Origin: Tritrichomonas musculus
Taxonomy: Eukaryota; Parabasalia; Tritrichomonadida; Tritrichomonadidae
DNA length: 64,000 bases
Direction: 5' to 3'
Assembly: GCA_039105265.1 (NCBI GenBank)
Contig: JAPFFF010000076.1
Location: 1 to 64,000, forward strand
In this document: positions 1-61,146 of the stretch, in pieces
How positions within the stretch are numbered: the stretch's first letter is position 1
Layout: every line of letters starts with the position of its first letter
Program-made: the position numbers and the translations under genes
Notes under the pieces: generated by a model
Seen by the model: the letters and a program-made list of their open reading frames with translations, nothing else
Told to the model about the DNA's origin: nothing
The model's database searches: none

Positions 1-1026
1 CTGCAAAAATTTGTCACTTTTCTTAACGGAAAGGAGAAGGGACAGATGGAAATCAAAATTAGCAGCCAATACATTTCACCTTCACTCCCTATCAGCATTC
101 AATAATAATCCGTTATCTAACGACTACGCAGTTAGACAGCAGTATCCCGTAAGTGACACTTTTTTCAAATTCGCCTTCCAAAGTAGGGCAAACCTTTTGC
201 CTACGCCTGAGTTTGTTGAAATAATGAATAACCGCCAACATTCACCTTGTGAATTGTGCTTGAGGCAAAATAAAAGCAGGAATCAAAGCCTGGCCCACAT
301 CCTTAATGGCTGCACTGCAAAATATCAAGCATATACTCAAAGACATAACAAAGTTCAGGCCGCTATCGTAAAACACGTTAGAAATTTACATGACGTAGAC
401 GAAATTTATTGTGACAGGTCACTTCATCTTAATGAATTACCTGATAACCTTAAACGGTTGAGACCCGATATCGTGATATGGCTGAATAACCGTTCAAAAT
501 GTTTTATCATCGAGATCAGTGTCCCGTACGCTTGTCAAAGAGATGGTGAAGATACACTTTCAATGGTTTACAACCAAAAGAAAGACAAATACAGAGACCT
601 CATTAATCACATAAGGGGTCTTAAAATACAAGTTCAACTTTTTGTGATTATCGTTTCTTCTCTTGGTGCAGTCTATAAAGATTCGTTAACAGATATCAAT
701 CATCTTTTTCTTTACAAAAGTATAGGTAAAACTGTTATCAGAAGTGTTTCAAGAGCTGCCCTCATCGGGTCTCTGAAAATTTGGTTTGAATGTCCCCACA
801 GAAGTTCAGATCACATGGCAAATAGTTCTGGGGCCCCTCTTAATTGCAATGAAACACTTGATTCGGTTTCTGAAGATGATGAAGACGATGAACCATCTCA
901 TGAAAATTTATATACACAAAATCTTTAATAACAACGCTTCACTACATCTTTTCACCTCACCTCACCATTTTCATTTATATGAACTCTAACTTTTCTTAAC
1001 TCTTATCTTACTTACTTAATAAACAA
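1..1026 (+). mobile_element. 3' end of a second copy of the tRNA-targeting non-LTR retrotransposon
   Basis: Bases 1-1026 match 13248-14273, the 3' end of the complete element. They hold the last part of the ORF, a short 3' UTR of about 100 bp and the AT-rich tail ending in ...aataaacaa. The element continues to the left of the window, so whether the copy is full length is unknown. It is followed by the same 24-bp target-site sequence as the complete copy. Confidence 0.9.
2..928 (+). CDS. Retrotransposon polyprotein, C-terminal part (restriction-like endonuclease), partial
   Basis: The reading frame is open from the window edge and ends at 926-928. It equals the last 309 codons of the complete element's ORF. 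It contains the Cys/His motif CELCLRQ...H...C and the endonuclease core RPDIVIWL followed by IIEISVPY. These are the CCHC finger and PD-(D/E) catalytic signature of restriction-like endonucleases in R2-type retrotransposons. An acidic tail (VSEDDEDDEPS) closes the protein. The upstream reverse transcriptase is outside the window. The product would nick the target DNA to prime reverse transcription. Confidence 0.85.
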   Translation, partial: CKNLSLFLTERRRDRWKSKLAANTFHLHSLSAFNNNPLSNDYAVRQQYPVSDTFFKFAFQSRANLLPTPEFVEIMNNRQHSPCELCLRQNKSRNQSLAHILNGCTAKYQAYTQRHNKVQAAIVKHVRNLHDVDEIYCDRSLHLNELPDNLKRLRPDIVIWLNNRSKCFIIEISVPYACQRDGEDTLSMVYNQKKDKYRDLINHIRGLKIQVQLFVIIVSSLGAVYKDSLTDINHLFLYKSIGKTVIRSVSRAALIGSLKIWFECPHRSSDHMANSSGAPLNCNETLDSVSEDDEDDEPSHENLYTQNL

Positions 1027-1050
1027 ATCCTCCTAACATCCATATTTTTT
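1027..1050 (+). repeat. Target-site duplication with tRNA-Ala 3' fragment (3' flank of first retrotransposon copy)
   Basis: These 24 bases, atcctcctaacatccatatt plus four T, repeat the 3' part of the tRNA-Ala gene and the start of its T-run. The same 24 bases occur at 4107-4130 and 14274-14297. This marks the 3' insertion boundary of the retrotransposon copy on the left. Confidence 0.85.
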
Positions 1051-2886: not shown

Positions 2887-3531
2887 ATGAAACTTGCCTG
2901 CGATTGTGACAATCATGAACTTGTTGACTGTTTTATATCACAGGAAGGATTTGAGTTCAAACCTTACATTTTCCAGAATGCGACATCTTTGACGAGAATT
3001 AACATTCCTGACGCGTTTACAGTGATACCAAACTCAGCATTCCGAAACTGCTCGTCACTTATCGCAGTTTCTATCCCTTCTTTTGTAACTTCATTTGAAA
3101 CAGCTTGTTTCTTTGGGTGTGAAAGCTTGAAGGAAATCACAATTCCAGACACGGTTGTCTCGATTGGCAGTTATGCCTTCTGCGATTGTTTCTCGCTGGA
3201 AGAAGTCACAGTTCCTCCTTCGGTTAAACGGATTGAAAGGTCTGTTTTCAGTGGCTGTAAATCATTGAAAAAAGTGACACTTCCAGAATCAATTTTATTT
3301 ATTGAATCTTTCGCCTTCGAAGGCTGCACTAGTTTGAAAGAGATCAACATTCCTCCCTGTGTAACCGAAATTGGAGCATGCTCATTCAAAGACTGCTCGT
3401 CCTTGGAAAAAATTGTCATTCCTTCATCTGTGACCAAAATTGGAAGGAAATGCTTTAAAGGATGCCTGGAGTTGTCTAGCATCACCATTCCTCCCTCCTT
3501 TGATTTAAAAATGCTCGATGAAAACTTTTGA
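2887..3531 (+). CDS. Ankyrin-end / BspA-type LRR protein ORF, copy 1 (probably the back half of a broken gene)
   Basis: The ORF encodes 214 residues. The first 20 (MKLACDCDNHELVDCFIS) read like an ankyrin repeat. They are followed by about seven TpLRR/LRR_5 units of the type SLKEITIPDTVVSIGSYAF, each with a conserved Cys. TpLRR proteins in trichomonads are mostly surface or adhesion-type proteins, but this ORF has no signal peptide or membrane segment. It ends early at LDENF, while the +1 frame carries another LRR unit (3518-3703). Together with the upstream DUF3447 ORF it probably represents one ankyrin-LRR gene with two frame breaks. Identical copy at 16134-16778. Confidence 0.65.
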   Translation: MKLACDCDNHELVDCFISQEGFEFKPYIFQNATSLTRINIPDAFTVIPNSAFRNCSSLIAVSIPSFVTSFETACFFGCESLKEITIPDTVVSIGSYAFCDCFSLEEVTVPPSVKRIERSVFSGCKSLKKVTLPESILFIESFAFEGCTSLKEINIPPCVTEIGACSFKDCSSLEKIVIPSSVTKIGRKCFKGCLELSSITIPPSFDLKMLDENF

Positions 3532-4050: not shown

Positions 4051-4122
4051 GGGTGTTTAGCTCAGTGGTAGAGCGCTACATTTGCATTGTAGAGGCCAGG
4101 AGTTCGATCCTCCTAACATCCA
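4051..4122 (+). tRNA. tRNA-Ala (anticodon UGC), copy 1
   Basis: A full cloverleaf can be drawn. The acceptor stem is GGGTGTT/AACATCC with one G-U pair. The D stem is GCTC/GAGC, the anticodon stem CTACA/TGTAG with loop TTTGCAT (anticodon TGC), and the T stem AGGAG/CTCCT with loop TTCGATC. The discriminator is A. The A box (TAGCTCAGTGG) and B box (AGTTCGATCC) for RNA polymerase III are intact, and a T-run follows at once as terminator. The retrotransposon is inserted immediately downstream, but its target duplication restores the complete 3' end, so the gene should still work. Confidence 0.95.
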
Positions 4123-4130
4123 TATTTTTT
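4107..4130 (+). repeat. 5' target-site duplication of the complete retrotransposon
   Basis: 24 bases covering the T-arm 3' strand, the acceptor 3' strand and the first T-run of the tRNA-Ala gene. Repeated exactly at 14274-14297 on the other side of the element. The unoccupied equivalent is behind the tRNA at 17298-17369, where the T-run is followed by unrelated sequence. Confidence 0.9.
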
Positions 4131-4164
4131 TTATTTTTAGTCCTTACCTTTTTAGCCAACGATA

Positions 4165-7100
4165 ATGGCATATTTGCAATCAGCAGAAGACGCTAATTCG
4201 TTTGATACCCCTCCCGCTAATTTTCGCGAAAATTTTTCTAACGATATCTCTTTTTATAAAGAAAACCTACCTAACCGACCAACTTCACCTCACAAACCCA
4301 ATTCTTTACCTTATACGAATCAAACATCTATACCAAACTTTATAGACCAACCTTATCAAGATTTATTCCTTTTCACGAATTACCATGAAAATCGTAAATT
4401 ATCTCAATTTTCGGAGTCTAACAAGTTTAATTATGACTCCTTTTCTATTTTCAATCCAAACACTTTTGAAATTCAATTTTATAATTTTAATAAATTTTCT
4501 TTTAACAACCGCGAACATTGTATTAAACAACATCGCCCAACAAATAAACAATTTACTCCAAATGTTTACCATTTACAACATCCACCTAAATCTCATTTTG
4601 ATATCCCAATTTCTCAACAACATAAACCACATCATAACCAGCTAATTCAATCGCAGATACAGAATAACAAACTGAAGAATTCTCAACAACAGAATATCCA
4701 ATCGACGCAATCACAACAACAGACTCACCATTCAAATCTTTCACAAGTACAGAATAATCAACCGCAGACTGAACTATCAATACTATCGCACAAACAGTCA
4801 AGTCAGCCGATACAATCACAAAAACAGCAACAGCTTTCTACGCAGCCACAATATCTGATTAATCATTCTCGGCGGTCAATTCCACCAAACAACCAGTCAA
4901 CAAGACCAAATCTATGGAGTAAACAGATGACACATTCGAACTTACGGAATTTCCAGTCAATGCATTCACAAACACAAAACAGCCAATTGTTACATTCTCA
5001 GATACAGAACAACCAATCGATATATTCACTGACACAGAGCACACGGATGCAAATCAACCAGTCGATGCACTCACAGACACACAGCAAACAGAAGATGCAT
5101 TCACAGACACAAAACAACCAGTCTTTGAACTCACAGACTCACAGCAACCAATGGCACCCACTTACGCAAAGCAACCAGTCGATGCTTTCACAGACGCAAA
5201 GCAACCAGTCGATACATTCACAGAAGCATAGCATCCAGATGATACATTCACAAATACAGAACATTCAATCGATGCATTCTAAGACGCAAAACAATCAGTC
5301 AATACATTCATTGACGCAAAACAATCTACTGAGGCATTTACAGATGCAAACCAAACAGTCGATGTATTCAAAGTCACAGAACAATCAAATGTTGCATTCA
5401 AAGACACAAAATAACCAGTCAATACATTCATCGATACAGAGCAATCAGCCAATACAGTCTCATACACTGTACATCCAATCGATGCACTCACAGAAACAGA
5501 TTCAGAACAACTATCCGAAGAATTTACTGTTTCAAAACAGCCAATCATTACATTTGCAATCACAGTACTACCAGACACTGACTCCTTCACAAGTTATTAG
5601 CTCTAACGTTGATGAAGAAAATCTGACATTCGCCATGAAAATGAAGAGAGGGCTAGTTGAAGACCCAACTATCTGTACAGAAATAGATACGATTAATGCC
5701 CCCAGTACAACAGTTGATGACGATGAAATCGAAGAATTTGACTATAAACGAGATGATTTCCTCTTCCTCCCGGAATTGAATCCATTGACTCAACTAAAGC
5801 AGTCATTTGATAATGAAGAAAATCTGACATTTATCATGAAAATGGAGAAAGGACTGGTTGAAGACCCTACTTCATATACAGATAATGATATACTTTGTGT
5901 CACCAGTACAACATCTAATGACGAAGACATCGAGGAGTTCGACTACAAGCCGGATTCCTTCCTCTTCCTTCAGGAATTGAACCCATCGACTCAATTAATG
6001 AATTCATTTGACAACGAAGAAAATTCCACATTTATCATGAAATTGAAGAGAGGACTTGTTGAAGACCCAAGTATTGATACAGAAAACGAGGTATGTAAAG
6101 TTCCTAGTACAACAGTTGATGACGAAGACATCGAGGAGTTCGACTACAAGCCGGATTCCTTCCTCTTCCTTCAGGAATTGAACCCATCGACTCAATTAAT
6201 GAATTCATTTGACAACGAAGAAAATTCCACATTTATCATGAAAATGAAGAGAGGGCTTGTTGAAGACCCATCCATTTTAACAGAGTTTGACACAACAATA
6301 GTCTCCAATCCAATATTGGATAATTTTGACACAGATAATTTTGATTATAAAACTGACTCTTTTCTTTTTTCCCCTGAGTTGAGCTTAACTTCTCATATTT
6401 CATTTCCTGCAGATACAAAGCAATATGTCGATAAATTCACTAATATAGAACAAACAGGCGTTTCATTCACAAATACAAAGCAATCAATCAATGATTTCAC
6501 AAGTGCTAAGCAACCAATTGTAGTTTGCAATGATGCAGAACAATCTATTGATACATTTGTAAATGCAGGACAACCAGTTGATACATTAAGAGATCCAGAA
6601 CATCCAGTCAAGACATTCAATGTCGCAGAACAATCAGCCGATGCACTCAAAGACGCAGAATTATCTGATGACGCATTCACTAATACAGAACATTCTGTCG
6701 ACGCATTTGCAGACACAGGACATCCATTTGAAGAACCCATTGGCGCTGAACACACAAATGCAAAACAAGTAAATGATGTTATCACAGACACTGAACAACC
6801 AATTAATGAATTCACTGACACTAATTATATAGATACAGAACAATCAGACGATGCACTCACAGACACTGAACACACAAATGCAGATCAACCAGCTGATGCA
6901 TTCAAGCAACCTGAGGCATTCATAGATGCAGAGCAACCAGTCTATTTATCCACAGACCTTGAGCAATCAGACGAAACATTCGAAGCCACTGGACAAGCAG
7001 ACGCAGTACTACGAATCGATTCTTTCGAAGACACAGAACAATTAATCGATGCTATCACTGACGCAAAAATATTAGCCGATACATTCACAGATGATGAACA

Positions 7101-10100
7101 CACAGATGCAGATCAACCAGTCGATGTAGTTGCAGACATAGGACTACCACCCGATACTTTTGCAGAAGCTGAAAACACAATTGCAGAAAAACCAGTCGAT
7201 ACATTCACAGGCTCAGATCTATCAGAAGATACATTCACAGGCACTGAACAACTAACTGATACACTCTCAGATGCAGTACTACCGGCCAATTCATTCACAG
7301 ACACAGTACAATCAGTCGATGCGCTCGCTGATACTAAACAACTAATGGATTCATCCACTTATCCAGAGCAATTAGACGATGCATTCACACCTGCAAAAAA
7401 TTCTTTCAAATCAGTCACTCTGTCAACTCATTCTAAGAAGCAGCAGCAAAACCAAGTAAATCGCTCGCACCAGCAGCAAATTCGTTTCAAGCACTTTCGC
7501 CAACAGCACAAATACCAAAAACATAAACAAAGGACACTGTCAAAACGTCATATTGACCAAACAAAACAGAAAGACCAATCAAATGCACTCGCTGAGAACA
7601 ATTCAACCCAATCTAAGCATAAAGAGGAGAAAGACAGTTCTATCACAGGTGCTGATAATTCATTGCATGATAAACAGTCCCCTGTTAATTCTAATGATTT
7701 CCGTTCCCATGACTCTGATTTCATGGATAGATGTGAAATAGTTCTCGCTCCTTCACCCACAAATTCCGATTCCTCTCTTTCTTACTCCTCTGATGATTGT
7801 GATGCTTTCGATATCTTAAATCCTGTAATCTCTCTACCTAAAGATTCTAATAATTCTCATAAGAAGATAAACAACAGCAACATTCTGTATGACATTACAC
7901 AAAACTTTCAACATCTATGCTGGTCAGAAAAAGATGATAGCAGACTCCTCAGTCTCTTCAATAAATTTGGTCCTAATTGGAACAAAATTGCTAATAGAAT
8001 GAACAAAAACTGTGATGACATCAAATTACATTTCAATTTTCTTATCAATCAAAGAGACTTTTGTAATACTAGCTCAGATTCTTCTTATGATGATTGTTTT
8101 GACCGTAATCAGCAGCAGGATTCTAATGACATGACTTACACTTATCTAGAAGACGAAATAATACTACAATGTTATGCTGCTGACATTTCGACTGATCTAA
8201 GCAAATATCCAGATTTACTACATGATAAATCTTTTAAGCAGTGCAAGGAAAGATTACATAACGTTCTCCTCTATAAAACAAACAAAACAGCTTGGTGCAA
8301 ATTTGAAGATGACATCTTATTAGAATCTTATTGGATGATTGGACCTAGATGGCTGTCATTGAGCCGACTTATTAAACAGCACGATCCCCACGATATTCGT
8401 TGTAGATGTGCAATTCTCCTCAAGTCTTCTCTCAATCTCAACTATGAGATCTCAGACTTCATTGACTTCGATAAAGTTAGAATCAATATCAACAAAGGTT
8501 CAAACACTCATTCCATTAATACCTCACAGGAAATCTCCAGTTATGACACATTAATTGATGACATCACGTACAGTCCAAATCAAGATGAATATTGTTCACC
8601 AAATTCTAGCTCTACCTCATTTGAAGATTCGCTTATCGACTGCCTTAACGTTCAAGATGATTCTGATACAACCATTTTATTATCAAATCTCAAAAACACA
8701 GAGTATCTCTGTGAGAAGACATTTGATGTTAATTCTAACATCGCTGATCTTCTCCAAACATCAAACAATTGGCCAGCTCCAATACCAAACATTTGTTATT
8801 TTGATGATTGCAATCATATTGCAGAATCTGAAGGAAGCTTGCGAGTGCACATCAGAAACTTTCATAAAGTCGATACTTCATTGATTAAAGATGAGATTGT
8901 GAACATCATTTCACATATGTCAAAGAAACGGATAAAACCGTTCTTTGACTTTAAAAATGGACAAATGGCAAAAAACAATAATCTGATGATTCTTTGCCAT
9001 CAACCGAATTGTAATTACATGAGTGACAGAGACTCAAATATGGCCAAACACCGCTGCAGACACTCCTCATACTTCCGACACATTGAAAATCTTGGAAGAT
9101 TCTGGGGTTCATTAAAGACATGGTATGAAACAGTTCATCGATTACCAACAATTAATGAGCTCCTAGGCAGCAATGAAGTGTGGGTTTGTAAAAAATGTGA
9201 CTTCTCTGCTGGTGATGAGAATGCTCTCAAAAACCATGTCTATCGTAGTCACGCAATTAAAGTCAACTCTGACTTGCACAATTACTGTGACAATGCAATC
9301 TTATCTTTCTCGTTCGACGATGATCTGCCCCACACTAACGTTGAACCTGCAACCAACAAACACTTGTTAACGGACAACACATCACAGTCACATTCACCTC
9401 AGAATAAAAGAGTTGAAAAAAGTGGATCTCACCAACAAAAAAGTGACAACGTTTTCAATACAGTTGACAAAATATATTTCGATATTTTGAAAGAATCTGA
9501 TTCTGACTCTGATTCTTGTTGTTCCTTTAATAATAATTTACAAATCAATCCAAAGAAAATCGTTCAGAGCCCTCCTGATGTTCTAACTAACGGCTCGCCT
9601 ACATCTCATAATATGTCTCCCCAGCTGCCACTGTCATCCACAGACCAGCATTCTCAGTCTAATACACAGATTGATTCTCCTCTTTCATTAAACTTTTTTC
9701 CCTCTGATATTCAACATTCTTTGAGTCATAATTGCGCTATTGATGAACATCACGTAACAGCATTTGATTTGCATCCATCTTTGAATGAAAATGATGGGCT
9801 TTGCTCTTATATTGGCAATTATATTGATTATGTAAATAAGAAAGATCATCATAATTCTCAAATTGATAATCATCTTTCTGAACATCACATCAATCCAATT
9901 GAAAATCATCTTTCTCGAATTAGTAACACTCAATTCGAAACTAATCAAAACATTGAAGAACATCACATCAATCCAATTGAAAATCATCTTTCTCGTAATA
10001 ACAACACACAATCTAAAACTAATCAAAACATTGAAGAACATCACATCACACAAACTGAAAATCATCTTTCTCGAATTAGTAACACTCAATTCGAAACTAA

Positions 10101-13100
10101 TCAAAACATTGAAGAACATCACATCACTCAAATTGAAAATCATCTTTCTCAAAATAGTAACACTCAATTCGAAACTAATCAAAACATTGAAGAACATCAC
10201 ATCACTCAAATTGAAAATCATCTTTCTCAAAATAGTAACACTCAATTCGAAACTAATCAAAACATTGAAGAACATCACATCACTCAAATTGAAAATCATC
10301 TTTCTCAAAATAGTAACACTCAATTCGAAACTAATCAAAACATTGAAGAACATCACATCACTCAAATTGAAAATAATCTTTCTAGAAATAATAGCAATCA
10401 ACCCGAAGCTAAAGGTATTATCGAAGAACATCACAATTCGCCTATTGAACTTCGTCATTCTCACAATCATATTCCTAATTCCGAATCACACAATAATATA
10501 ACTTTCGACTCATTCTCGTTTAGTGATTCAGACAGTGAGGAGCAGATCTCAGACTCACCTCATAACAATAATATAACATCACATAATTGTAGAAGTCTCA
10601 ACATCCCAAGCCGATTCAATGATTTACGCCAATCCAGAAGAAAAATTCGTAAGCCATTGAATCGTATCACTATGACCTCAAATAATTCTAATTACATTTA
10701 CAACTTCCCAACAGACCCGAAGATGAAGAAGATATCGCAAGGACTGAAATGGTTCAATGATGCTCAACAAAGAGGCTGTATTCATCTTCCCAAACTGGAC
10801 CGGGACAAAAGGAAGCTGATATCCTCTGGTCTCAAAGATCTCTTTCAACTTGAACTCACGCCTCTCATCATTGAATTCAATCCAACTGCAATGGAGGATG
10901 TTGACCCTCAATTGAGATGGAAAATCTTTGAGGGTGCGTATGAAGAATCACTTCACCGTATCAGAACTCATGTCGCTCTCAAACTTAATATTGAACCTTC
11001 GTTCATCTATCACAAAAGGAAAAAACGCCAGTTCAATAATATTAAACACGAAGAACTCTTCAGTATTCAAAGAAAATTGAGTAATCTCAAAAAACTGGCA
11101 AGCGACATTGAAGTAGTTAACGAAATGGACAGACTGGCAGAAGACTCAAAATTTGAGAAAGCATTGAGTCGAATCATACAAAATGTCCAAGTCATCCCAC
11201 CTGAAGTCAGAATTGAACTTTTTAATAAGGAGAACGTTTTAGACATATGTGATGATTTATGTTACATTAAGGAAAAAGCAGCAGCGTGTTCGAAATGGAT
11301 TGAGGGGAAAATTGGTCAGCTTATAAAAGACGAAATGAGCTTAAAAAGTCAGAACATTCAAAAAAAGAGGTTACAAGAAGCATACTCAGATAACGCTAAG
11401 AAAACATTAAACAATTTTATATTCAACAAATCTTCCCCTGAATGTCAGATTGATGAAGATGTGGTTAGAGACTATTTTGCATCAACATTCAGCAGAAATG
11501 TAAAAGTATTCCAACCAGATGAAGAAGGAATTTTTTCACTTCATGAAACTTTTTCTGATGACGATAGAAGAGAATTCATTGATTTCATCAGTAACAAAGA
11601 TGAAATAATTAACGTTATTAAATCGAGAAAATACGAATCTGCTGCAGGTCCCGATGCTATTGACTATTCAATTTTCAAGTTGGTTCCGAACGCTGCAGCT
11701 GACTTCATCGTCGCAATTAACGATATCATCATCAACTATAACCGTGTTCCAAGCGGTTGGAAAACGTCTCATACAAGGTTAATATATAAGAAAGGTGACC
11801 CTAGTACCCCAAACAACTGGAGACCGATATCTATTTCAAATGCGATATACAGAATATTCAGTTGTTTGTGGGCACGGGGTATCAACTTTTTCAATACAAG
11901 ACTTAACGTATTTTCCCCTAATCAAAGAGGATTCATTGCAGGCATAAACGGTTGTTCTGATAATGCATCTATTATTTCTGAGTTATATTGTGACGCAATC
12001 AGAAAGAATAAGGATATCATTATAACCGCTCTTGATTTCAAAAACGCATTTGGCTCAGTCCCTCATGAGATGATATTCTCATCTCTTATAATGAAAGGCT
12101 TCCCTGAAAAATTCATTGATATTATTAAAGACGTTTATCTAGGAGCCACAACTAATATCGTCACATCAAGCTACTCTTCAAAAGCGATAGATATCAAGAA
12201 AGGTACAAAACAGGGGTGCCCCGTCTCCCCTCTCCTCTTCAACCTTTGCCTGGAACCATTATTTGAGGCGATCAATAATCTCAATAAAAATGACGGATAC
12301 AAATTTGGCCCTAGAGATGATCGTTCTTCATTCAATATTTTGGCCTATGCAGACGATATCTTACTTATCTCAGATTCATATCATGGAATGAACAACATGC
12401 TCAGAACTTGCGAACGATTTTGTCAGTACTCTGGGATGGAACTTGCTCCTTTGAAATCCTGTTCGTTCGGATATCTCCTCAATAACCGTCGGAGATGTGG
12501 TCTGTCTCAAGGCTTTTCAATCAACAACGTCATGATCCCCTTCGTTGGCATTGATGAATCTATCCGTTATCTTGGGACACCGATAACTGCCAGAAAAACC
12601 GCCAAACTTAAAACATCAACTGACATTGTTTTGAAATTTATTTCTAAAGCTCAGAAGATTTTTAACTCTGATCTTAAAATAGTTCAAAAAGTTCATGCAT
12701 TCAAAACATTCTTGATTCCGACCCTTGACTTCTCTCTTCAGAATGGTCAATTAAAGGTGAAAGACATTGAGAGAATTGATGATACATTAGGTGCTATGGT
12801 TAACAAACTTATCGGAGGTGCCTTACCCATTGCCATTAAGCATGCTTCATGGAAAGATGGCGGTTTGTCTATACCATCTATCAAGGAAAAAAGTGACACT
12901 GGTAAAATTAAATCTTTTCTAAGAATGTTCCTGAACAAAGATACTCTTATCAGGAAACTCACAAACATTTCAATTGAAAACGAAAGACATATGAGAAAAA
13001 TTGGTATCGTTAACGATATCAGCTCACAAAAATTCCTCAACTGGAACTCCGATACACAAGACACAGAAGCTCCAGGGACCAATTCCATTATCAACAGAGC

Positions 13101-14175
13101 CAGAAAAGCTCTGAAAAACTTGGACTTAACCCTCAGCTACGATGACGATAACCTCAACGATGACACTCTGAACACCTCATATCACAATGATTGCCCTCAA
13201 TTGGTCCTCACAGATACATTGACACATGACAGCGTTCATCTTCAAAACTGCAAAAATTTGTCACTTTTCTTAACGGAAAGGAGAAGGGACAGATGGAAAT
13301 CAAAATTAGCAGCCAATACATTTCACCTTCACTCCCTATCAGCATTCAATAATAATCCGTTATCTAACGACTACGCAGTTAGACAGCAGTATCCCGTAAG
13401 TGACACTTTTTTCAAATTCGCCTTCCAAAGTAGGGCAAACCTTTTGCCTACGCCTGAGTTTGTTGAAATAATGAATAACCGCCAACATTCACCTTGTGAA
13501 TTGTGCTTGAGGCAAAATAAAAGCAGGAATCAAAGCCTGGCCCACATCCTTAATGGCTGCACTGCAAAATATCAAGCATATACTCAAAGACATAACAAAG
13601 TTCAGGCCGCTATCGTAAAACACGTTAGAAATTTACATGACGTAGACGAAATTTATTGTGACAGGTCACTTCATCTTAATGAATTACCTGATAACCTTAA
13701 ACGGTTGAGACCCGATATCGTGATATGGCTGAATAACCGTTCAAAATGTTTTATCATCGAGATCAGTGTCCCGTACGCTTGTCAAAGAGATGGTGAAGAT
13801 ACACTTTCAATGGTTTACAACCAAAAGAAAGACAAATACAGAGACCTCATTAATCACATAAGGGGTCTTAAAATACAAGTTCAACTTTTTGTGATTATCG
13901 TTTCTTCTCTTGGTGCAGTCTATAAAGATTCGTTAACAGATATCAATCATCTTTTTCTTTACAAAAGTATAGGTAAAACTGTTATCAGAAGTGTTTCAAG
14001 AGCTGCCCTCATCGGGTCTCTGAAAATTTGGTTTGAATGTCCCCACAGAAGTTCAGATCACATGGCAAATAGTTCTGGGGCCCCTCTTAATTGCAATGAA
14101 ACACTTGATTCGGTTTCTGAAGATGATGAAGACGATGAACCATCTCATGAAAATTTATATACACAAAATCTTTAA
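4165..14175 (+). CDS. Giant retrotransposon polyprotein (Myb-like, C2H2 fingers, reverse transcriptase, restriction-like endonuclease)
   Basis: The product has 3336 residues, several times the usual 1000-1300 of R2-type proteins. Domains in order: a Gln/Ser/Asn-rich repeat region (about 150-475); four 67-residue repeats (about 483-745); an acidic 10-residue repeat region (about 750-1085); Myb/SANT-like segments near 1252 (CWSEKDDSRLLSLFNKFGPN) and 1376 (AWCKFEDDILLESYWMIGPR); three C2H2 fingers near 1543, 1612 and 1675; a 26-residue repeat array (about 1907-2110). The reverse transcriptase (about 2490-2830) has ALDFKNAFGSVPH, GTKQGCPVSPLLFNL and the catalytic AYADDILL near 2728. The endonuclease has CELC near 3110 and RPDIVIWL...IIEI near 3182. 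It would nick the tRNA-Ala locus and prime cDNA synthesis there. No stop or frameshift interrupts it. Confidence 0.9.
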   Translation: MAYLQSAEDANSFDTPPANFRENFSNDISFYKENLPNRPTSPHKPNSLPYTNQTSIPNFIDQPYQDLFLFTNYHENRKLSQFSESNKFNYDSFSIFNPNTFEIQFYNFNKFSFNNREHCIKQHRPTNKQFTPNVYHLQHPPKSHFDIPISQQHKPHHNQLIQSQIQNNKLKNSQQQNIQSTQSQQQTHHSNLSQVQNNQPQTELSILSHKQSSQPIQSQKQQQLSTQPQYLINHSRRSIPPNNQSTRPNLWSKQMTHSNLRNFQSMHSQTQNSQLLHSQIQNNQSIYSLTQSTRMQINQSMHSQTHSKQKMHSQTQNNQSLNSQTHSNQWHPLTQSNQSMLSQTQSNQSIHSQKHSIQMIHSQIQNIQSMHSKTQNNQSIHSLTQNNLLRHLQMQTKQSMYSKSQNNQMLHSKTQNNQSIHSSIQSNQPIQSHTLYIQSMHSQKQIQNNYPKNLLFQNSQSLHLQSQYYQTLTPSQVISSNVDEENLTFAMKMKRGLVEDPTICTEIDTINAPSTTVDDDEIEEFDYKRDDFLFLPELNPLTQLKQSFDNEENLTFIMKMEKGLVEDPTSYTDNDILCVTSTTSNDEDIEEFDYKPDSFLFLQELNPSTQLMNSFDNEENSTFIMKLKRGLVEDPSIDTENEVCKVPSTTVDDEDIEEFDYKPDSFLFLQELNPSTQLMNSFDNEENSTFIMKMKRGLVEDPSILTEFDTTIVSNPILDNFDTDNFDYKTDSFLFSPELSLTSHISFPADTKQYVDKFTNIEQTGVSFTNTKQSINDFTSAKQPIVVCNDAEQSIDTFVNAGQPVDTLRDPEHPVKTFNVAEQSADALKDAELSDDAFTNTEHSVDAFADTGHPFEEPIGAEHTNAKQVNDVITDTEQPINEFTDTNYIDTEQSDDALTDTEHTNADQPADAFKQPEAFIDAEQPVYLSTDLEQSDETFEATGQADAVLRIDSFEDTEQLIDAITDAKILADTFTDDEHTDADQPVDVVADIGLPPDTFAEAENTIAEKPVDTFTGSDLSEDTFTGTEQLTDTLSDAVLPANSFTDTVQSVDALADTKQLMDSSTYPEQLDDAFTPAKNSFKSVTLSTHSKKQQQNQVNRSHQQQIRFKHFRQQHKYQKHKQRTLSKRHIDQTKQKDQSNALAENNSTQSKHKEEKDSSITGADNSLHDKQSPVNSNDFRSHDSDFMDRCEIVLAPSPTNSDSSLSYSSDDCDAFDILNPVISLPKDSNNSHKKINNSNILYDITQNFQHLCWSEKDDSRLLSLFNKFGPNWNKIANRMNKNCDDIKLHFNFLINQRDFCNTSSDSSYDDCFDRNQQQDSNDMTYTYLEDEIILQCYAADISTDLSKYPDLLHDKSFKQCKERLHNVLLYKTNKTAWCKFEDDILLESYWMIGPRWLSLSRLIKQHDPHDIRCRCAILLKSSLNLNYEISDFIDFDKVRININKGSNTHSINTSQEISSYDTLIDDITYSPNQDEYCSPNSSSTSFEDSLIDCLNVQDDSDTTILLSNLKNTEYLCEKTFDVNSNIADLLQTSNNWPAPIPNICYFDDCNHIAESEGSLRVHIRNFHKVDTSLIKDEIVNIISHMSKKRIKPFFDFKNGQMAKNNNLMILCHQPNCNYMSDRDSNMAKHRCRHSSYFRHIENLGRFWGSLKTWYETVHRLPTINELLGSNEVWVCKKCDFSAGDENALKNHVYRSHAIKVNSDLHNYCDNAILSFSFDDDLPHTNVEPATNKHLLTDNTSQSHSPQNKRVEKSGSHQQKSDNVFNTVDKIYFDILKESDSDSDSCCSFNNNLQINPKKIVQSPPDVLTNGSPTSHNMSPQLPLSSTDQHSQSNTQIDSPLSLNFFPSDIQHSLSHNCAIDEHHVTAFDLHPSLNENDGLCSYIGNYIDYVNKKDHHNSQIDNHLSEHHINPIENHLSRISNTQFETNQNIEEHHINPIENHLSRNNNTQSKTNQNIEEHHITQTENHLSRISNTQFETNQNIEEHHITQIENHLSQNSNTQFETNQNIEEHHITQIENHLSQNSNTQFETNQNIEEHHITQIENHLSQNSNTQFETNQNIEEHHITQIENNLSRNNSNQPEAKGIIEEHHNSPIELRHSHNHIPNSESHNNITFDSFSFSDSDSEEQISDSPHNNNITSHNCRSLNIPSRFNDLRQSRRKIRKPLNRITMTSNNSNYIYNFPTDPKMKKISQGLKWFNDAQQRGCIHLPKLDRDKRKLISSGLKDLFQLELTPLIIEFNPTAMEDVDPQLRWKIFEGAYEESLHRIRTHVALKLNIEPSFIYHKRKKRQFNNIKHEELFSIQRKLSNLKKLASDIEVVNEMDRLAEDSKFEKALSRIIQNVQVIPPEVRIELFNKENVLDICDDLCYIKEKAAACSKWIEGKIGQLIKDEMSLKSQNIQKKRLQEAYSDNAKKTLNNFIFNKSSPECQIDEDVVRDYFASTFSRNVKVFQPDEEGIFSLHETFSDDDRREFIDFISNKDEIINVIKSRKYESAAGPDAIDYSIFKLVPNAAADFIVAINDIIINYNRVPSGWKTSHTRLIYKKGDPSTPNNWRPISISNAIYRIFSCLWARGINFFNTRLNVFSPNQRGFIAGINGCSDNASIISELYCDAIRKNKDIIITALDFKNAFGSVPHEMIFSSLIMKGFPEKFIDIIKDVYLGATTNIVTSSYSSKAIDIKKGTKQGCPVSPLLFNLCLEPLFEAINNLNKNDGYKFGPRDDRSSFNILAYADDILLISDSYHGMNNMLRTCERFCQYSGMELAPLKSCSFGYLLNNRRRCGLSQGFSINNVMIPFVGIDESIRYLGTPITARKTAKLKTSTDIVLKFISKAQKIFNSDLKIVQKVHAFKTFLIPTLDFSLQNGQLKVKDIERIDDTLGAMVNKLIGGALPIAIKHASWKDGGLSIPSIKEKSDTGKIKSFLRMFLNKDTLIRKLTNISIENERHMRKIGIVNDISSQKFLNWNSDTQDTEAPGTNSIINRARKALKNLDLTLSYDDDNLNDDTLNTSYHNDCPQLVLTDTLTHDSVHLQNCKNLSLFLTERRRDRWKSKLAANTFHLHSLSAFNNNPLSNDYAVRQQYPVSDTFFKFAFQSRANLLPTPEFVEIMNNRQHSPCELCLRQNKSRNQSLAHILNGCTAKYQAYTQRHNKVQAAIVKHVRNLHDVDEIYCDRSLHLNELPDNLKRLRPDIVIWLNNRSKCFIIEISVPYACQRDGEDTLSMVYNQKKDKYRDLINHIRGLKIQVQLFVIIVSSLGAVYKDSLTDINHLFLYKSIGKTVIRSVSRAALIGSLKIWFECPHRSSDHMANSSGAPLNCNETLDSVSEDDEDDEPSHENLYTQNL
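4640..5590 (+). repeat. Approximately 30-bp minisatellite inside the retrotransposon ORF, read in the Gln/Ser frame
   Basis: Degenerate units based on cattcacagacgcaaagcaa plus ccagtcgatg encode HSQTQNNQSM-like decapeptides here. The same nucleotide unit recurs at 6410-7420 in a different frame. The region is part of the coding sequence and probably forms a disordered, low-complexity segment. Confidence 0.85.
5611..6414 (+). repeat. Four 201-bp in-frame repeats in the retrotransposon ORF
   Basis: Units start at 5611, 5812, 6013 and 6214, each 201 bp (67 codons). Each begins with DEENLTFIMKMKRGLVEDP-like sequence and contains IEEFDYKPDSFLFLQELNP. Stretches such as 5930-6010 and 6131-6211 are almost identical, which indicates recent duplication of the third unit. 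Confidence 0.9.
6410..7420 (+). repeat. The same 30-bp minisatellite read in the Asp/Glu/Thr frame
   Basis: Units such as gatgcattcacagacactga encode DAFTDTEQPV-like decapeptides. The nucleotide unit is the one seen at 4640-5590, shifted by one reading frame, so the same DNA repeat gives an acidic region here and a polar Gln/Ser region there. Confidence 0.85.
9883..10500 (+). repeat. 78-bp in-frame tandem repeat in the retrotransposon ORF
   Basis: About eight units of 26 codons, with the consensus EEHHITQIENHLSQNSNTQF plus ETNQNI. The central units (10111-10344) are nearly identical in DNA. The array lies between the zinc fingers and the reverse transcriptase and encodes a His/Asn-rich linker. 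Confidence 0.9.
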
Positions 14176-14273
14176 TAACAACGCTTCACTACATCTTTTC
14201 ACCTCACCTCACCATTTTCATTTATATGAACTCTAACTTTTCTTAACTCTTATCTTACTTACTTAATAAACAA

Positions 14274-14297
14274 ATCCTCCTAACATCCATATTTTTT
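14274..14297 (+). repeat. 3' target-site duplication of the complete retrotransposon
   Basis: Exact repeat of 4107-4130. It contains the 3' strands of the T and acceptor stems of tRNA-Ala without the 5' part, so it is a tRNA fragment created by insertion and not a gene. Confidence 0.9.
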
Positions 14298-16133: not shown

Positions 16134-16778
16134 ATGAAACTTGCCTGCGATTGTGACAATCATGAACTTGTTGACTGTTTTATATCACAGGAAGGATTTG
16201 AGTTCAAACCTTACATTTTCCAGAATGCGACATCTTTGACGAGAATTAACATTCCTGACGCGTTTACAGTGATACCAAACTCAGCATTCCGAAACTGCTC
16301 GTCACTTATCGCAGTTTCTATCCCTTCTTTTGTAACTTCATTTGAAACAGCTTGTTTCTTTGGGTGTGAAAGCTTGAAGGAAATCACAATTCCAGACACG
16401 GTTGTCTCGATTGGCAGTTATGCCTTCTGCGATTGTTTCTCGCTGGAAGAAGTCACAGTTCCTCCTTCGGTTAAACGGATTGAAAGGTCTGTTTTCAGTG
16501 GCTGTAAATCATTGAAAAAAGTGACACTTCCAGAATCAATTTTATTTATTGAATCTTTCGCCTTCGAAGGCTGCACTAGTTTGAAAGAGATCAACATTCC
16601 TCCCTGTGTAACCGAAATTGGAGCATGCTCATTCAAAGACTGCTCGTCCTTGGAAAAAATTGTCATTCCTTCATCTGTGACCAAAATTGGAAGGAAATGC
16701 TTTAAAGGATGCCTGGAGTTGTCTAGCATCACCATTCCTCCCTCCTTTGATTTAAAAATGCTCGATGAAAACTTTTGA
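16134..16778 (+). CDS. Ankyrin-end / BspA-type LRR ORF, copy 2
   Basis: 214 residues, identical to 2887-3531: an ankyrin-like start followed by about seven TpLRR units and no export signal. It is separated from the DUF3447 ORF by the same 91-bp frame-broken spacer. Read together with that ORF as a split ankyrin-LRR gene. Confidence 0.65.
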   Translation: MKLACDCDNHELVDCFISQEGFEFKPYIFQNATSLTRINIPDAFTVIPNSAFRNCSSLIAVSIPSFVTSFETACFFGCESLKEITIPDTVVSIGSYAFCDCFSLEEVTVPPSVKRIERSVFSGCKSLKKVTLPESILFIESFAFEGCTSLKEINIPPCVTEIGACSFKDCSSLEKIVIPSSVTKIGRKCFKGCLELSSITIPPSFDLKMLDENF

Positions 16779-17297: not shown

Positions 17298-17369
17298 GGG
17301 TGTTTAGCTCAGTGGTAGAGCGCTACATTTGCATTGTAGAGGCCAGGAGTTCGATCCTCCTAACATCCA
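17298..17369 (+). tRNA. tRNA-Ala (anticodon UGC), copy 2, unoccupied target site
   Basis: Sequence identical to 4051-4122, with the same cloverleaf, anticodon loop TTTGCAT and pol III boxes. It is followed by a T-run (attttttttctattttttg) without retrotransposon sequence. It therefore shows what an empty insertion site looks like and confirms the limits of the target duplication. Confidence 0.95.
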
Positions 17370-21497: not shown

Positions 21498-21569
21498 TGG
21501 ATGTTAGGAGGATCGAACTCCTGGCCTCTACAATGCAAATGTAGCGCTCTACCACTGAGCTAAACACCC
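21498..21569 (-). tRNA. tRNA-Ala (anticodon UGC), inverted copy 3
   Basis: The reverse complement has the same 72 bases as the plus-strand tRNA-Ala copies. About 50 bp upstream (TTTCAGTATATGAGAAA on the transcribed strand) are also similar, so the copy moved with some flank. A T-run follows the discriminator. No retrotransposon is inserted at this copy. Confidence 0.95.
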
Positions 21570-23345: not shown

Positions 23346-24023
23346 ATGAAACTTGCCTGCGATTGTGACAATCATGAACTTGTTGACTGTTTTATATCAC
23401 AGGAAGGATTTGAGTTCAAACCTTACATTTTCCAGAATGCGACATCTTTGACGAGAATTAACATTCCTGACGCGTTTACAGTGATACCAAACTCAGCATT
23501 CCGAAACTGCTCGTCACTTATCGCAGTTTCTATCCCTTCTTTTGTAACTTCATTTGAAACAGCTTGTTTCTTTGGGTGTGAAAGCTTGAAGGAAATCACA
23601 ATTCCAGACACGGTTGTCTCGATTGCCAGTTATGCCTTCTGCGATTGTTTCTCGCTGGAAGAAGTCACAGTTCCTCCTTCGGTTAAACGGATTGAAAGGT
23701 CTGTTTTCAGTGGCTGTAAATCATTGAAAAAAGTGACACTTCCAGAATCAGTTACATTGATCTTATCTTTCGCCTTCGAAGGCTGCACTAGTTTGAAAGA
23801 GATCAACATTCCTCCCTGTGTAACCGAAATTGGAGCATGCTCATTCAAAGACTGCTCGTCCTTGGAAAAAATTGTCATTCCTTCATCTGTGACCAAAATT
23901 GGAAGGAAATGCTTTAAAGGATGCCTGGAGTTGTCTAGCATCACCATTCCTCCCTCCTTTGATTTAAAAATGCTCGATATTGACTTAACAACTCAACGAA
24001 TAGAAGTTCAATCACCTCAATGA
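23346..24023 (+). CDS. Ankyrin-end / BspA-type LRR ORF, copy 3
   Basis: 225 residues. It equals copies 1 and 2 up to FDLKMLD except for one altered LRR unit (SVTLILSFAFEGC instead of SILFIESFAFEGC) and G-to-A in SIASYAF. It then ends in a different tail (IDLTTQRIEVQSPQ). The ankyrin-like start and about seven TpLRR units are the same. No signal peptide or membrane anchor. The tail may be the original C-terminus that the other two copies lost by frameshift, or a separate ending. Confidence 0.65.
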   Translation: MKLACDCDNHELVDCFISQEGFEFKPYIFQNATSLTRINIPDAFTVIPNSAFRNCSSLIAVSIPSFVTSFETACFFGCESLKEITIPDTVVSIASYAFCDCFSLEEVTVPPSVKRIERSVFSGCKSLKKVTLPESVTLILSFAFEGCTSLKEINIPPCVTEIGACSFKDCSSLEKIVIPSSVTKIGRKCFKGCLELSSITIPPSFDLKMLDIDLTTQRIEVQSPQ

Positions 24024-25189: not shown

Positions 25190-27751
25190 ATGAACATCTT
25201 TTTGATTTTTTTAATCTCTTCAATTTCTTCCAAGTCAGAAAAATGTTATTCAGGTCCATTATCCATTTTAGAAAATATTACAGAAATTAAGGACAAAGAA
25301 TACGAATTATGTTCAGAATTCACTGGAATTTTGAAGATACCTAACTCAATTACAAGAATTGGAATATCCTCTTTTAAAGGATGCTCCGGTTTTACAGGTT
25401 CTTTAATAATTCCAGATTCAGTTATATTTATTGGTCATGACGCTTTTTCTGGATGTTCAGGCTTCACTGGATCATTGACACTTCCGAATAAAATTATTAA
25501 TATTGAAGATTGCACCTTTTTTGGCTGTTCGAACCTAAAAGGATCATTATTTTTATCAGAAAATTTGATAAGTATTGGAAATTATGCCTTTTTTAACTGC
25601 TCAAGCTTAAATGGAACGCTACTAATTCCTGATTCAGTCAACAGCATTGGCCAATATGCCTTTTCGTATTGTAATAATTTTAATGGTGAATTAATTTTAC
25701 CAAAACGATTAAAAATAATCAACTCCAGCTCATTTTCAGACTGTTCTGGATTCACAGGTCAATTAAAAATACCTGAAACCGTCACATCTATTAAAAGTTA
25801 TGCTTTTTCAAATTGTTACGGTTTTTCAGAATCTTTAATAATACCAAAAACGGTTATTTCTATCGGCGGTTATGCCTTCTATCGGTGCAGTGGACTCAAT
25901 GGAACATTGACTCTTCCTGATTCAGTTATCGGCATTGGAAATTTCGCTTTTTCAGACTGTTCAAAATTGAGAGGTTCATTAACGATACACGAAACCGTTA
26001 CACAAATGGAAAAAGATGCTTTCTCAAACTGTTATAGTTTTGACGGAACGTTAACTATTTCCACACAAGCAATCGGTCTCTCCACTGGCATTTTCAGCAA
26101 CTGTTTTGGCTTCACCAAATTGGTATTGAATGCGAGTTTGCTGGAATCGATCAGCAACAGCTTGTTCACAAATTGCTATGGATTCAGAGGTAATTTGGTC
26201 CTACCAAGTGAAATCAAAATTATTGGGAAATATGCTTTTCAAAATTGTTCCGGATTCACTGGTAATTTGGTCATTCCTGAAAAAGTGACAAAAATTCAAC
26301 AAGATGCCTTCTCAAATTGTCATGGATTCACCGGTGAACTGAAGTTCTCAAATTCTTTAAAAGAACTTGGAAAAAGTGCCTTCTCAAATTGTTACGGTTT
26401 TGACGGAAATCTGACACTACCAAACAAACTGTTTTCAATTGGAGCGAACGCTTTTTTTGGATGCTTCAATTTGAAGGGATCAATGACCATTCCAGAGTCT
26501 GTAATCATCGTTGAAGAAGGAGTCTTCTCCGGCTGTTCATGCTTGGATGGGACCTTGACTATCCTCTCGTCACTCGAGATCATCGAGGATTACTTGTTTG
26601 CGGACTGTTCGGGCTTGAAAGGCCCATTGAATATTCCTGAATCAGTTGAAAGCATCAGGAGTTATGCGTTCTATCGCTGTTCTGGATTGTCTGGCTCGTT
26701 AAAGCTGCCTGATAAAGTGGCGAGCATTGGCGACTATTCGTTCTTCAACTGTTCTGGTTTTAATGGCACTTTGGCCATCTCAAGTCACATGTTAAATATC
26801 GGAAATCACGCGTTTTCTGAGTGTTCTGGTTTTGTCGGATCTCTTCGACTTTCGAGTCATATTTGTTTCATCGGCAAGTCTGCGTTTTCTAATTGTTCTT
26901 GCTTTTCTGGCACGTTAACCATTCCATATACAATCATAAGCATTTCTGATTATGCCTTCTGCAATTGTTCTGGACTGAAGGGACAATTGACTCTCCCGAT
27001 TTTCTTAAAGACGATTGGAATGTACTCATTTTACAATTGTTCTGGTTTGACAAATGATCTGCAACTCCACCAGTCAATCAAATCGGTGGGAATGTCTGCA
27101 TTCCAATACTGTTCTGGATTGAATGGTTCATTGACAATCTTAAATAATGACGGAAGTTTGTCAATCGATAAATTCGCCTTTAAATCAACAAGATTTTCTG
27201 TTGTCATTTATAATTCGACAAAATTTCCGAATTGCACATCCAGTTCATTTGATGAAGATCAAGAAATTATTCTTTCTTCAGGTGTTAACAGCACCACATT
27301 TTGTGGAATCAATTTAATCAAAAAAACGCCTTCACAGTCAGAAACACCTTCTTTATCTCCAAGTCCTTCTTTGTCTGCAAGTCCTTCATTGTCATTCTCT
27401 CCTTCAACGTCAGAAGAAATCATTATTTGTCCTTCAAAATCTCCCACTTTTTCTCCTTTCAAAACAATGTCTGAAATTCCTACAAAATCATTGGTTCCTA
27501 CTTTGACAGATTCGCAATCTTTTTCTGTTATAACTGCTTTCCCTTCTCAATCACAAACTTTCAAAGGAGGAAATGATTCTAGTCGTATTAGGGACTTTGA
27601 AAATTTATATTTGTATATTTTAATAATCTGTTCTGTTTTGTTTTTAATTTCAATTATAATAATCATTATTTTATGCGTTAAAAAGAGACGTGACTCAATT
27701 ATTCCAAGAAATGAGCATCTCTCAAATTTACTTTTTTCAGATATTGGATAA
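25190..27751 (+). CDS. BspA-like leucine-rich repeat surface protein
   Basis: 853 residues. The N-terminus MNIFLIFLISSISS is a signal peptide. About 25 TpLRR units follow (about 45-660) of the type GCSGFTGSLIIPDSVIFIG, with a Cys in nearly every unit. A Ser/Pro/Thr-rich stalk (about 705-780, for example SLSPSPSLSASPSLSFSPS) leads to a transmembrane helix (LYLYILIICSVLFLISIIII, about 807-830) and a short basic cytoplasmic tail (KKRRDSIIPRN). This is the classical layout of trichomonad BspA-like proteins, thought to act in adhesion to host cells or bacteria. The ORF is uninterrupted, in contrast to the LRR ORFs on its left. Confidence 0.92.
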   Translation: MNIFLIFLISSISSKSEKCYSGPLSILENITEIKDKEYELCSEFTGILKIPNSITRIGISSFKGCSGFTGSLIIPDSVIFIGHDAFSGCSGFTGSLTLPNKIINIEDCTFFGCSNLKGSLFLSENLISIGNYAFFNCSSLNGTLLIPDSVNSIGQYAFSYCNNFNGELILPKRLKIINSSSFSDCSGFTGQLKIPETVTSIKSYAFSNCYGFSESLIIPKTVISIGGYAFYRCSGLNGTLTLPDSVIGIGNFAFSDCSKLRGSLTIHETVTQMEKDAFSNCYSFDGTLTISTQAIGLSTGIFSNCFGFTKLVLNASLLESISNSLFTNCYGFRGNLVLPSEIKIIGKYAFQNCSGFTGNLVIPEKVTKIQQDAFSNCHGFTGELKFSNSLKELGKSAFSNCYGFDGNLTLPNKLFSIGANAFFGCFNLKGSMTIPESVIIVEEGVFSGCSCLDGTLTILSSLEIIEDYLFADCSGLKGPLNIPESVESIRSYAFYRCSGLSGSLKLPDKVASIGDYSFFNCSGFNGTLAISSHMLNIGNHAFSECSGFVGSLRLSSHICFIGKSAFSNCSCFSGTLTIPYTIISISDYAFCNCSGLKGQLTLPIFLKTIGMYSFYNCSGLTNDLQLHQSIKSVGMSAFQYCSGLNGSLTILNNDGSLSIDKFAFKSTRFSVVIYNSTKFPNCTSSSFDEDQEIILSSGVNSTTFCGINLIKKTPSQSETPSLSPSPSLSASPSLSFSPSTSEEIIICPSKSPTFSPFKTMSEIPTKSLVPTLTDSQSFSVITAFPSQSQTFKGGNDSSRIRDFENLYLYILIICSVLFLISIIIIIILCVKKRRDSIIPRNEHLSNLLFSDIG

Positions 27752-33484: not shown

Positions 33485-33504
33485 ACTTTTTATTTCAACT
33501 AAAA

Positions 33505-33768
33505 ATGTCAATGACGTTACAGCCACGCTCAGGACAAGCCTTCGCGAGTCTTCCACCACTCCGAAGACCACATCAGAGAAGTACATTTGCAACTCAAACA
33601 TTAAAACAGATCAACAGTAGACTTCAATATTACAGACGAGTTCTTAATACACCTATGCCCGAAGATGAGAAAGGAATTATGAAAAGACAGAAATTACAAG
33701 CCAAATATGAGAGAGATATGAGAGTTAGAAGATTATTAAACCGAGCAATTTCTAATTATTATTCATGA
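33505..33768 (+). CDS. Small Arg-rich protein (Maverick A)
   Basis: 87 residues, starting MSMTLQPRSGQAFASLPPLR at the ATG directly after an AAAA leader, 20 bp from the divergent integrase start. It is strongly basic, with a helical C-terminal half (KLQAKYERDMRVRRLLNRAI). A DNA-binding or core-like role is possible from charge alone. I see no homolog in Maverick B and cannot name a family. Confidence 0.6.
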   Translation: MSMTLQPRSGQAFASLPPLRRPHQRSTFATQTLKQINSRLQYYRRVLNTPMPEDEKGIMKRQKLQAKYERDMRVRRLLNRAISNYYS

Positions 33769-60344: not shown

Positions 60345-61146
60345 GATATTCAACAATAACAACAAGATTTTCAACAACAACATGGTTCTTCAACAACAAG
60401 ATTTTTCAACAACAACATGGTTCTTCAACAACAAGATTTTTCAACAACAACATGGTTCTTCAACAACAAGATTTTTCAACAACAACATGGTTCTTCAACA
60501 ACAACAAGATTTTTCAACAACAACAAGATTTTTCAACAACAACAACAAGGTTTTTCAACAACAACAAGGTTCTTCAACAACAAGATTTTTCAACAACAAC
60601 ATGGTTCTTCAACAACAACAAGATTTTTCAACAACAACAACAAGATTTTTCAACAACAACAACAAGGTTTTTCAACAACAACAAGGTTCTTCAACAACAA
60701 CAAGGTTTTTCAACAACAACATGGTTCTTCAACAACAACATGGTTCTTCAACAACAACATGGTTCTTCAACAACAACATGGTTCTTCAACAACAAGATTT
60801 TTCAACAACAACATGGTTCTTCAACAACAACATGGTTCTTCAACAACAACAAGGTTTTTCAACAACAACAAGGTTTTTCAACAACAACATGGTTCTTCAA
60901 CAACAACATGGTTCTTCAACAACAACATGGTTCTTCAACAACAACATGGTTCTTCAACAACAAGATTTTTCAACAACAACATGGTTCTTCAACAACAACA
61001 TGGTTCTTCAACAACAACATGGTTTTTCAACAACAACAAGGTTTTTCAACAACAACATGGTTCTTCAACAACAACATGGTTCTTCAACAACAACATGGTT
61101 CTTCAACAACAACATGGTTCTTCAACAACAACATGGTTCTTTATAA
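60345..61146 (+). repeat. CAA-rich minisatellite of about 16-22 bp units (Maverick B)
   Basis: About 800 bp of units such as ATGGTTCTTCAACAACAAC and AAGATTTTTCAACAACAAC. Because the commonest unit is 19 bp, which is not a multiple of three, and contains no stop, all three plus frames stay open and give the same cyclic peptide. I treat the three long frames as artefacts of the repeat. 61147-61420 behind the array holds a GC-richer patch (61180-61290) but no gene. Confidence 0.9.

Follow-up and report, generated by a model that had tools for sequence, protein, structure and literature searches.

The Tritrichomonas musculus genome contains a 64,000-nt stretch (contig JAPFFF010000076.1, positions 1 to 64,000; hereafter the window) in which a retrotransposon lacking long terminal repeats (non-LTR) immediately follows an intact tRNA-Ala(UGC) gene. 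Analysis of this element and its relatives in the same assembly revealed that six reverse transcriptase (RT) families of one clade, together with a seventh 3′ end, use five tRNAs (tRNA-Ala, -Met, -Asn, -Phe and -Tyr), with a single tRNA for each family. It is very probable that these elements are a clade of site-specific retrotransposons of the restriction-like endonuclease (RLE) type that live inside tRNA genes and, by the mechanism proposed below, preserve their target. Both junctions, the target duplication, the upstream tRNAs, the arrays, the use of one tRNA per RT class and the membership of one clade were all observed in the genome. An initial annotation of the window, made from its letters alone, had correctly recognized a trichomonad-type genome.

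The window element is a site-specific RLE-type retrotransposon

Identical copies of the 24-mer ATCCTCCTAACATCCATATTTTTT stand at the two boundaries of the window element (Table 1), each consisting of the tRNA-Ala 3′ end and a T-run that we took as the RNA polymerase III (Pol III) terminator. Because the last base of the element is A, the target duplication is 23-24 bp long. These flanking duplications had been described in the initial annotation together with an intact RT and a restriction-like endonuclease, and our analysis bore out both: a single open reading frame (ORF) contains AYADDILL and RPDIVIWL...IIEIS, supported by Pfam (RVT_1, 2.4e-32; Myb, 1.2e-8) and phmmer. Compared with a solved R2 protein, the window protein gave a phmmer value of 1.2e-49 in two stretches, corresponding to the RT and the endonuclease, the second with an i-Evalue of 8.6e-5. 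The predicted fold of its RT and endonuclease part aligned with R2 chains up to about residue 3,300. The last C2H2 finger scored below the Pfam cut-off, and the Pfam scan of this protein found neither an Ulp1-like protease (PF02902) nor an APE endonuclease domain.

All tRNA-Ala elements share one junction

We searched the genome (746 contigs, 193,395,805 bases) for the last 398 bp of the Ala element plus its tail and obtained 13 matches, all 100% identical, in which every 3′ end met the tRNA tail at one identical base. The downstream flank was that of the window in 11 cases, a different one on contig C2 and the next element on contig C65. The repeat in the window consists of tandem 13,247-bp units with 99.9% identity over 3,104 bp, and since 11 Ala copies lie in such units, the 13 matches reduce to two separate Ala loci with full elements. 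For the same reason, neither the element copy at 1-1026 with its flank nor the empty tRNA at 17298-17369 counts as independent evidence within the window. The initial annotation was right that this second copy has the same 3′ junction and that the empty site exists, but the tandem duplication rules out reading the two copies as two insertions, and the empty site lies at the end of the duplication. Its proposal of a site-specific family using tRNA-Ala held genome-wide, as all 13 3′ ends share the tRNA flank and no copy with unrelated flanks at the 3′ joint was found.

Independent evidence was provided by the copy on C2 and by the empty tRNA-Ala genes counted below. The C2 copy follows a tRNA-Ala and matches the window element at 99.1% identity over its first 1,492 bp. 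Two Ala elements on C65 are spaced 10,167 bp apart, that is, one element plus 24 bp, and C51 holds a decayed Ala relic (93.5% over 277 bp). Of 21 tRNA-Ala genes, 11 are followed by an intact element start, one by a relic and eight are empty, meaning that no element occurs within the 1.5 kb read behind the gene; one is unclear (locus L030).

Different families use different tRNAs at a common T-loop position

RT domains across the genome were followed to their 3′ ends, 150 of 198 candidates being scored. A tRNA tail was reached from 142 of these 150 RTs (109 by exact pattern, 3 read directly, and 30 of 34 fetched stretches, one with a mismatch), and no RT score class contained tails of two tRNAs. 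Targeting of tRNA-Ala stood as initially annotated, with Ala one of five targets. The Met family ends in ATTAAACATTTT joined to GTCACGCCCAAAGC, the tail of tRNA-Met(CAT), and locus L058 carries a second Met-type 3′ end beyond those of the six families with a sequenced RT. Two families join the tail of tRNA-Asn(GTT), CCACACGGGAGGAG: Asn-A through AATAAACGAATTT followed by A or T, and Asn-B through AATAAACAAT. The Phe family, with units spaced 14.3-14.6 kb, joins AATAAACAGTCA to GTCCGCGAAGTCCCA, the tail of tRNA-Phe(GAA), and the Tyr family joins AATAAACACTTTAA to TTCCAGCAGCGCGGA. ARAGORN called one of the two Tyr-target genes (L085, 631-712, and L086) Arg(TCT) and missed the other; from their sequence, we infer that both are intron-containing tRNA-Tyr(GTA) genes.

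Across families, open frames range from 2,210 to 4,784 codons, the longest in Phe units; the 3′ joints carry no poly(A), the elements have no LTR, and the site is fixed in a multicopy gene. By exact match, we counted 21 tRNA-Ala genes (71 nt) and, using 25 nt of the 3′ part, 30 tRNA-Asn, 17 tRNA-Met and 98 tRNA-Phe genes, while a 16-nt Tyr pattern gave 42 matches, two of which are element tails. Searches for further families via proteins P0064 and P0025 returned only known ones among the candidates scored (33 of 465 and 48 of 513, respectively).

Alignment of the eight junction types showed that the sequence shared with the tRNA starts between TTCG/A and TTCGAT/C (the slash marks the start), corresponding to T-loop positions 57 to 60, so that every junction falls within 2 nt of a single T-loop position. 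This site lies in the B box, which is bound by TFIIIC. Since the tRNAs differ downstream of the junction, the shared cut position in different target genes is a real pattern rather than the product of a single target that was copied.

The families form one RT branch separate from R2

We placed 61 RTs in an IQ-TREE phylogeny (LG+C20, midpoint root, with four long branches flagged), in which the six families and mostly unnamed metagenome relatives formed one branch (support 100/98), and three R2 proteins of known structure fell in another (100/99). R2 is the only named RT clade in this tree; P0085, an Ulp1-bearing RT, lies outside the tRNA-family branch. The element thus stands beside R2 in a separate branch, and not outside the RLE-type clades, consistent with the affinity initially proposed. 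Identity over the RT-endonuclease region was 47-49% among Ala, Phe and Met and 49% between Asn-A and Asn-B, with other pairs at 25-32%, and the five tRNA states require at least four changes on the tree.

The endonuclease motif was present in all six families, and a regular expression detected the CCHC knuckle in four. A C2H2-LGxFW-C2H2 module upstream of the RT was present in 13 of 15 clade entries longer than 1,800 residues, the pattern failing in P0010 and L133 (which has VGVFW), and in 22 of 82 entries overall, many of them fragments. The LGxFW pattern is not exclusive to the clade, as 2 of 63 proteins outside the clade list match it (P0016, and P0082, which was left out of the tree). Myb domains, which the window element shares with P0001 and P0003-P0006, were not found in P0009 and P0013, so the clade as a whole does not need them.

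No relatives with flanks in viral contigs were found. Relatives in genome contigs occupy at least three loci, of which L133 is informative, L134 ends at the element end and L135 comes without a 3′ end. Several relatives are filed under bacteria (L133 and L134, CAMWTP010000157/162; L135, JAITSP010000020; P0003; P0101), with the labels Lachnospiraceae, Rickettsiales, Helicobacter and Opitutales, probably through contamination of public assemblies. For P0003, deposited as Helicobacter typhlonius, the RT agrees with the Met family at every one of 487 aligned columns, and contamination is the best explanation.

Elements form arrays behind matching tRNA genes

Among 55 arrays or single sites, 31 start behind a matching tRNA on the same strand; the permitted distance was 6 kb for Tyr, 24 kb for Phe and 9-9.5 kb for the other three tRNAs. 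The tRNA-to-element distance is nearly constant within a family, except in Asn, where the first units differ. Arrays clearly also grow by recombination, because Met arrays show equal spacings of 10,094 bp, a 22,976-bp higher-order unit of Asn-A and Asn-B elements occurs twice at C58:627989-664825, and the Met array on C8 has tails reading GCAGA behind a head tRNA reading GCAAA, so that its units did not all arise by insertion at the head tRNA. Asn-A and Asn-B are intermixed on C58, and Asn tails are followed by at least four types of 5′ start (47 counted places, partly overlapping).

Behind a tRNA-Phe on C2 lie units of 0.7-3.5 kb. The 14.5 kb read there, which span the first six of ten places with a Phe tail (the first being the tRNA itself), contain no internal open frame longer than 101 codons, and one unit matches the autonomous Phe element at its 3′ end (88% over 102 bp). 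Judged by sequence, the C2 units are non-autonomous partners of the Phe element, and it is on C2 only that such Phe units were demonstrated. We rejected a reading of some 130 Phe tails as non-autonomous elements, since 98 of the 133 matches have the tRNA-Phe T-arm; with these taken as tRNA genes, at most 35 can be element tails. Many of the tRNA-Phe genes occur in tandem clusters with a period of 3.3-3.6 kb on C10, C66, C115, C158, C185, C252, C270, C541 and others. Other short units, about 0.7-1.8 kb long and carrying Asn tails (C31:213569-215356, L084 and C58:695014-696460), adjoin tRNA-Asn or sit within Asn arrays and are probably further non-autonomous elements. The sites C6:6026961 and C6:6032551 were rejected as a simple filled/empty pair: their 245-bp flank starts exactly at the joint (99.6%) but is similar in its own right to the start of an old Met element (77.6% over 134 bp).

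A proposed mechanism of target-preserving insertion

From the junctions and arrays, we infer the enzyme steps, strand order, target-reading domain and order of insertion as follows. The protein would bind its own tRNA gene and probably use the C2H2-LGxFW module to do so, joined in one branch by the Myb repeats. Its endonuclease would nick one strand in the T-loop, beside A58 and within the B box, and the element RNA, without a poly(A) tail, would be copied from this nick by target-primed reverse transcription. A cut of the second strand some 23-24 bp further downstream, within the T-run where the tRNA transcript ends, would create a stagger that duplicates the tRNA 3′ end and terminator, placing a whole tRNA gene 5′ and a bare tail 3′ of the element. 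A complete tRNA gene would thus remain and the host would lose no tRNA; with the target rebuilt at each insertion, the same tRNA would stay open to repeated insertion, building head-to-tail arrays, such as the pair of Ala elements on C65, that recombination then enlarges. Families would have switched tRNA identity while retaining the T-loop position.

We are evenly divided on a broader proposal, in which the T-loop/B box serves as a universal docking point: the shared C2H2-LGxFW module would fix the cut between A58 and position 59, and a separate, fast-changing part of the protein would pick the tRNA, among at least five. The clade would perhaps be confined to parabasalids, and each insertion, rebuilding its target because the stagger extends to the Pol III terminator, would maintain a harmless, self-renewing niche.

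Counter-evidence and alternative explanations

Several points weigh against a clade that lives in tRNA genes and renews them. Twenty-four of the 55 arrays or sites failed the upstream-tRNA test; nine of these lie less than 7 kb from a contig edge (C129, C406, C522, C177, C66, C738, C742, C442 and C11:5634052), in two (C3, C63) an unlisted Asn-B copy intervenes and three, on short contigs (C229, C354, C656), were counted as undecided, leaving ten without an explanation (C10, C27, C28:681678, C8:2342857 and three each on C14 and C19). On C14, the fetched tails of three RTs show a G-to-A change. Upstream tRNAs of Asn, Met and Phe were recognized by a 25-nt match to the 3′ part, and whole genes were confirmed for only one Asn, four Met and one Phe. 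Eight of the 150 scored RTs had no readable tail (two at contig ends, C738 and C8:6192277; two rearranged, on C63; four with no tail in the fetched stretch), and the tails on C8 differ from their head tRNA. The evidence as a whole is genomic sequence.

A few old tRNA insertions that multiplied through unequal crossing-over, segmental duplication and gene conversion, retrotransposition having added little since, would account for the near-identical 13,247-bp units, the exact Met spacing, the repeated unit on C58 and the GCAGA/GCAAA mismatch. We consider this unlikely as a general explanation, because Ala insertions on C2 and on C65/C76 have different flanks, the upstream DNA of the two Tyr sites reads differently (compared by eye, not aligned), eight Met sites are spread over seven contigs, and duplication leaves the single T-loop position common to different families unaccounted for. 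That position lies within the B box and all five targets are tRNA genes, as would be expected if the elements were guided by the Pol III machinery on tRNA genes, as is Ty3, rather than by recognition of DNA sequence. Machinery-based targeting is likewise reported for Dictyostelium TRE5 (PMC5911963), yet with a general factor each family would be expected to use several tRNAs and to insert at flanking sites, like the TRE elements described there, whereas here insertion occurs inside the gene at a fixed nucleotide with only one tRNA per RT class; we therefore regard Pol III guidance as improbable.

Least credible is a plain R2-clade element with a changed target. Among solved structures, R2 proteins match best in both sequence and fold, and the order of fingers/Myb, RT and endonuclease is identical, but the midpoint-rooted tree parts the families from R2, their open frames exceed the 1,114-1,390 residues of R2 chains, and the 24-bp duplication lies inside a tRNA gene. 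A clade with sequence-specific insertion into tRNA genes remains our preferred reading.

Features of the window

Table 1 Coordinates of the element and related features in the window (aa, amino acids)
Feature	Position	Strand	Basis or remark
3′ end of preceding element copy, within 13,247-bp tandem duplication	1..1026	+	
tRNA-Ala tail after preceding element copy	1027..1050	+	
Intact tRNA-Ala(UGC) gene, 5′ side of element	4051..4122	+	ARAGORN; Rfam tRNA 69.9 bits
Left copy of 24-bp target duplication (tRNA 3′ end and T-run)	4107..4130	+	
Non-LTR retrotransposon, 10,143 bp	4131..14273	+	Bounded by the two 24-mers; C65 copies 10,167 bp apart
Single ORF, 3,336 aa	4165..14175	+	Contains AYADDILL and RPDIVIWL...IIEIS
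Two Myb-like repeats	7918..8379	+	aa 1252-1291 by Pfam; aa 1355-1405 by phmmer to Myb chains
C2H2 fingers with motif LGRFWG, aa about 1544-1696	8794..9252	+	Finger limits from sequence
78-bp (26-aa) internal repeats inside ORF, family D2	9724..10563	+	
RT domain, aa 2542-2806, YADD	11788..12582	+	Pfam, phmmer, predicted fold
CCHC knuckle and PD-(D/E)XK restriction-like endonuclease, aa 3061-3289	13345..14031	+	phmmer stretch, motif, predicted fold
Right copy of 24-bp duplication (tRNA-Ala tail without rest of tRNA)	14274..14297	+	
Empty tRNA-Ala target, end of 13,247-bp duplication	17298..17369	+	
Second empty tRNA-Ala target	21498..21569	-	ARAGORN

Genes for BspA-type leucine-rich repeat proteins lie at 2887-3531, 16134-16778, 23346-24023 and 25190-27751. 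PF13306 was matched at 2887-3531 and 25190-27751, and the other two genes are nearly identical to the one at 2887-3531. Those at 2887-3531 and 16134-16778 lie within the duplicated tRNA-element unit. Maverick/Polinton-type genes occupy 28742-63866, including PolB (PF03175), an A32-type ATPase (39632-40414), an ORF that reads as integrase-like without a Pfam match (32354-33601) and further large ORFs; a second such gene set seems to start at about 52.6 kb. A short-period repeat at 60382-61211 is open in three frames (FSTTTWFFNNN / MVLQQQ).

Significance and comparison with known systems

A clade that keeps its cut position while changing the gene it cuts offers a natural series on how RLE endonucleases read their targets, which is relevant to R2-based tools for RNA-templated gene insertion. 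By rebuilding an essential host gene, the element also offers a clean case of target preservation, with bacterial islands at tRNA 3′ ends as an analogue. These elements make up part of the repeats of T. musculus, a gut protist that serves in mouse studies. Its genome was published as 193.49 Mb in 756 contigs with 42.67% repeats, and the words "transposon" and "retrotransposon" are absent from the main text of that paper (PMC11978803).

Targeting of tRNA genes by RLE elements was already known, and it is the diversification and the target-renewing anatomy that are new as far as we searched: in the open-licence literature, we found no report of a multi-tRNA clade, a shared T-loop junction, target-renewing arrays or Tritrichomonas elements. 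NeSL-1_TV, whose suffix presumably denotes T. vaginalis by Repbase naming, resembles the window element in being an RLE-type non-LTR retrotransposon with a tRNA gene target in an apparently trichomonad host. It is described as tRNA-Pro-specific by authors who call its placement unresolved (Kojima and Jurka 2015, PMC4640811), and is assigned to the NeSL clade (PMC7650587). A tRNA-specific relative, apparently from these protists, has been in print since 2015, which qualifies the initial view that they were little described there; by its description, NeSL-1_TV is set apart as one family with one tRNA, compared with five tRNAs here. The planarian elements LIN15_SM and LIN25_SM, specific for tRNA-Arg and tRNA-Glu, are likewise RLE elements in tRNA genes but belong to an animal lineage, R5/LIN, with 28S-specific sisters (PMC4640811).

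Utopia shares a small-RNA-gene target, inserting into U2 small nuclear RNA genes with occasional tandem insertion, and some of its relatives encode an Ulp1-like protease (PMC4640811); it differs from our clade in the target and in this protease, which the window protein was not found to contain. TRE5 and TRE3 of Dictyostelium are also non-LTR elements that target tRNA genes, yet they belong to the L1 clade, carry an APE endonuclease and insert outside the gene, 40-54 bp upstream or 40-150 bp downstream (PMC5911963), whereas the present clade inserts inside it with one tRNA per family. The accessible text of that review of Pol III targeting mentions no RLE element and none inside tRNA genes. 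From R2, most members of which insert in 28S ribosomal DNA, the clade differs in RT branch, size, duplication length and target, all of its junctions lying in tRNA genes.
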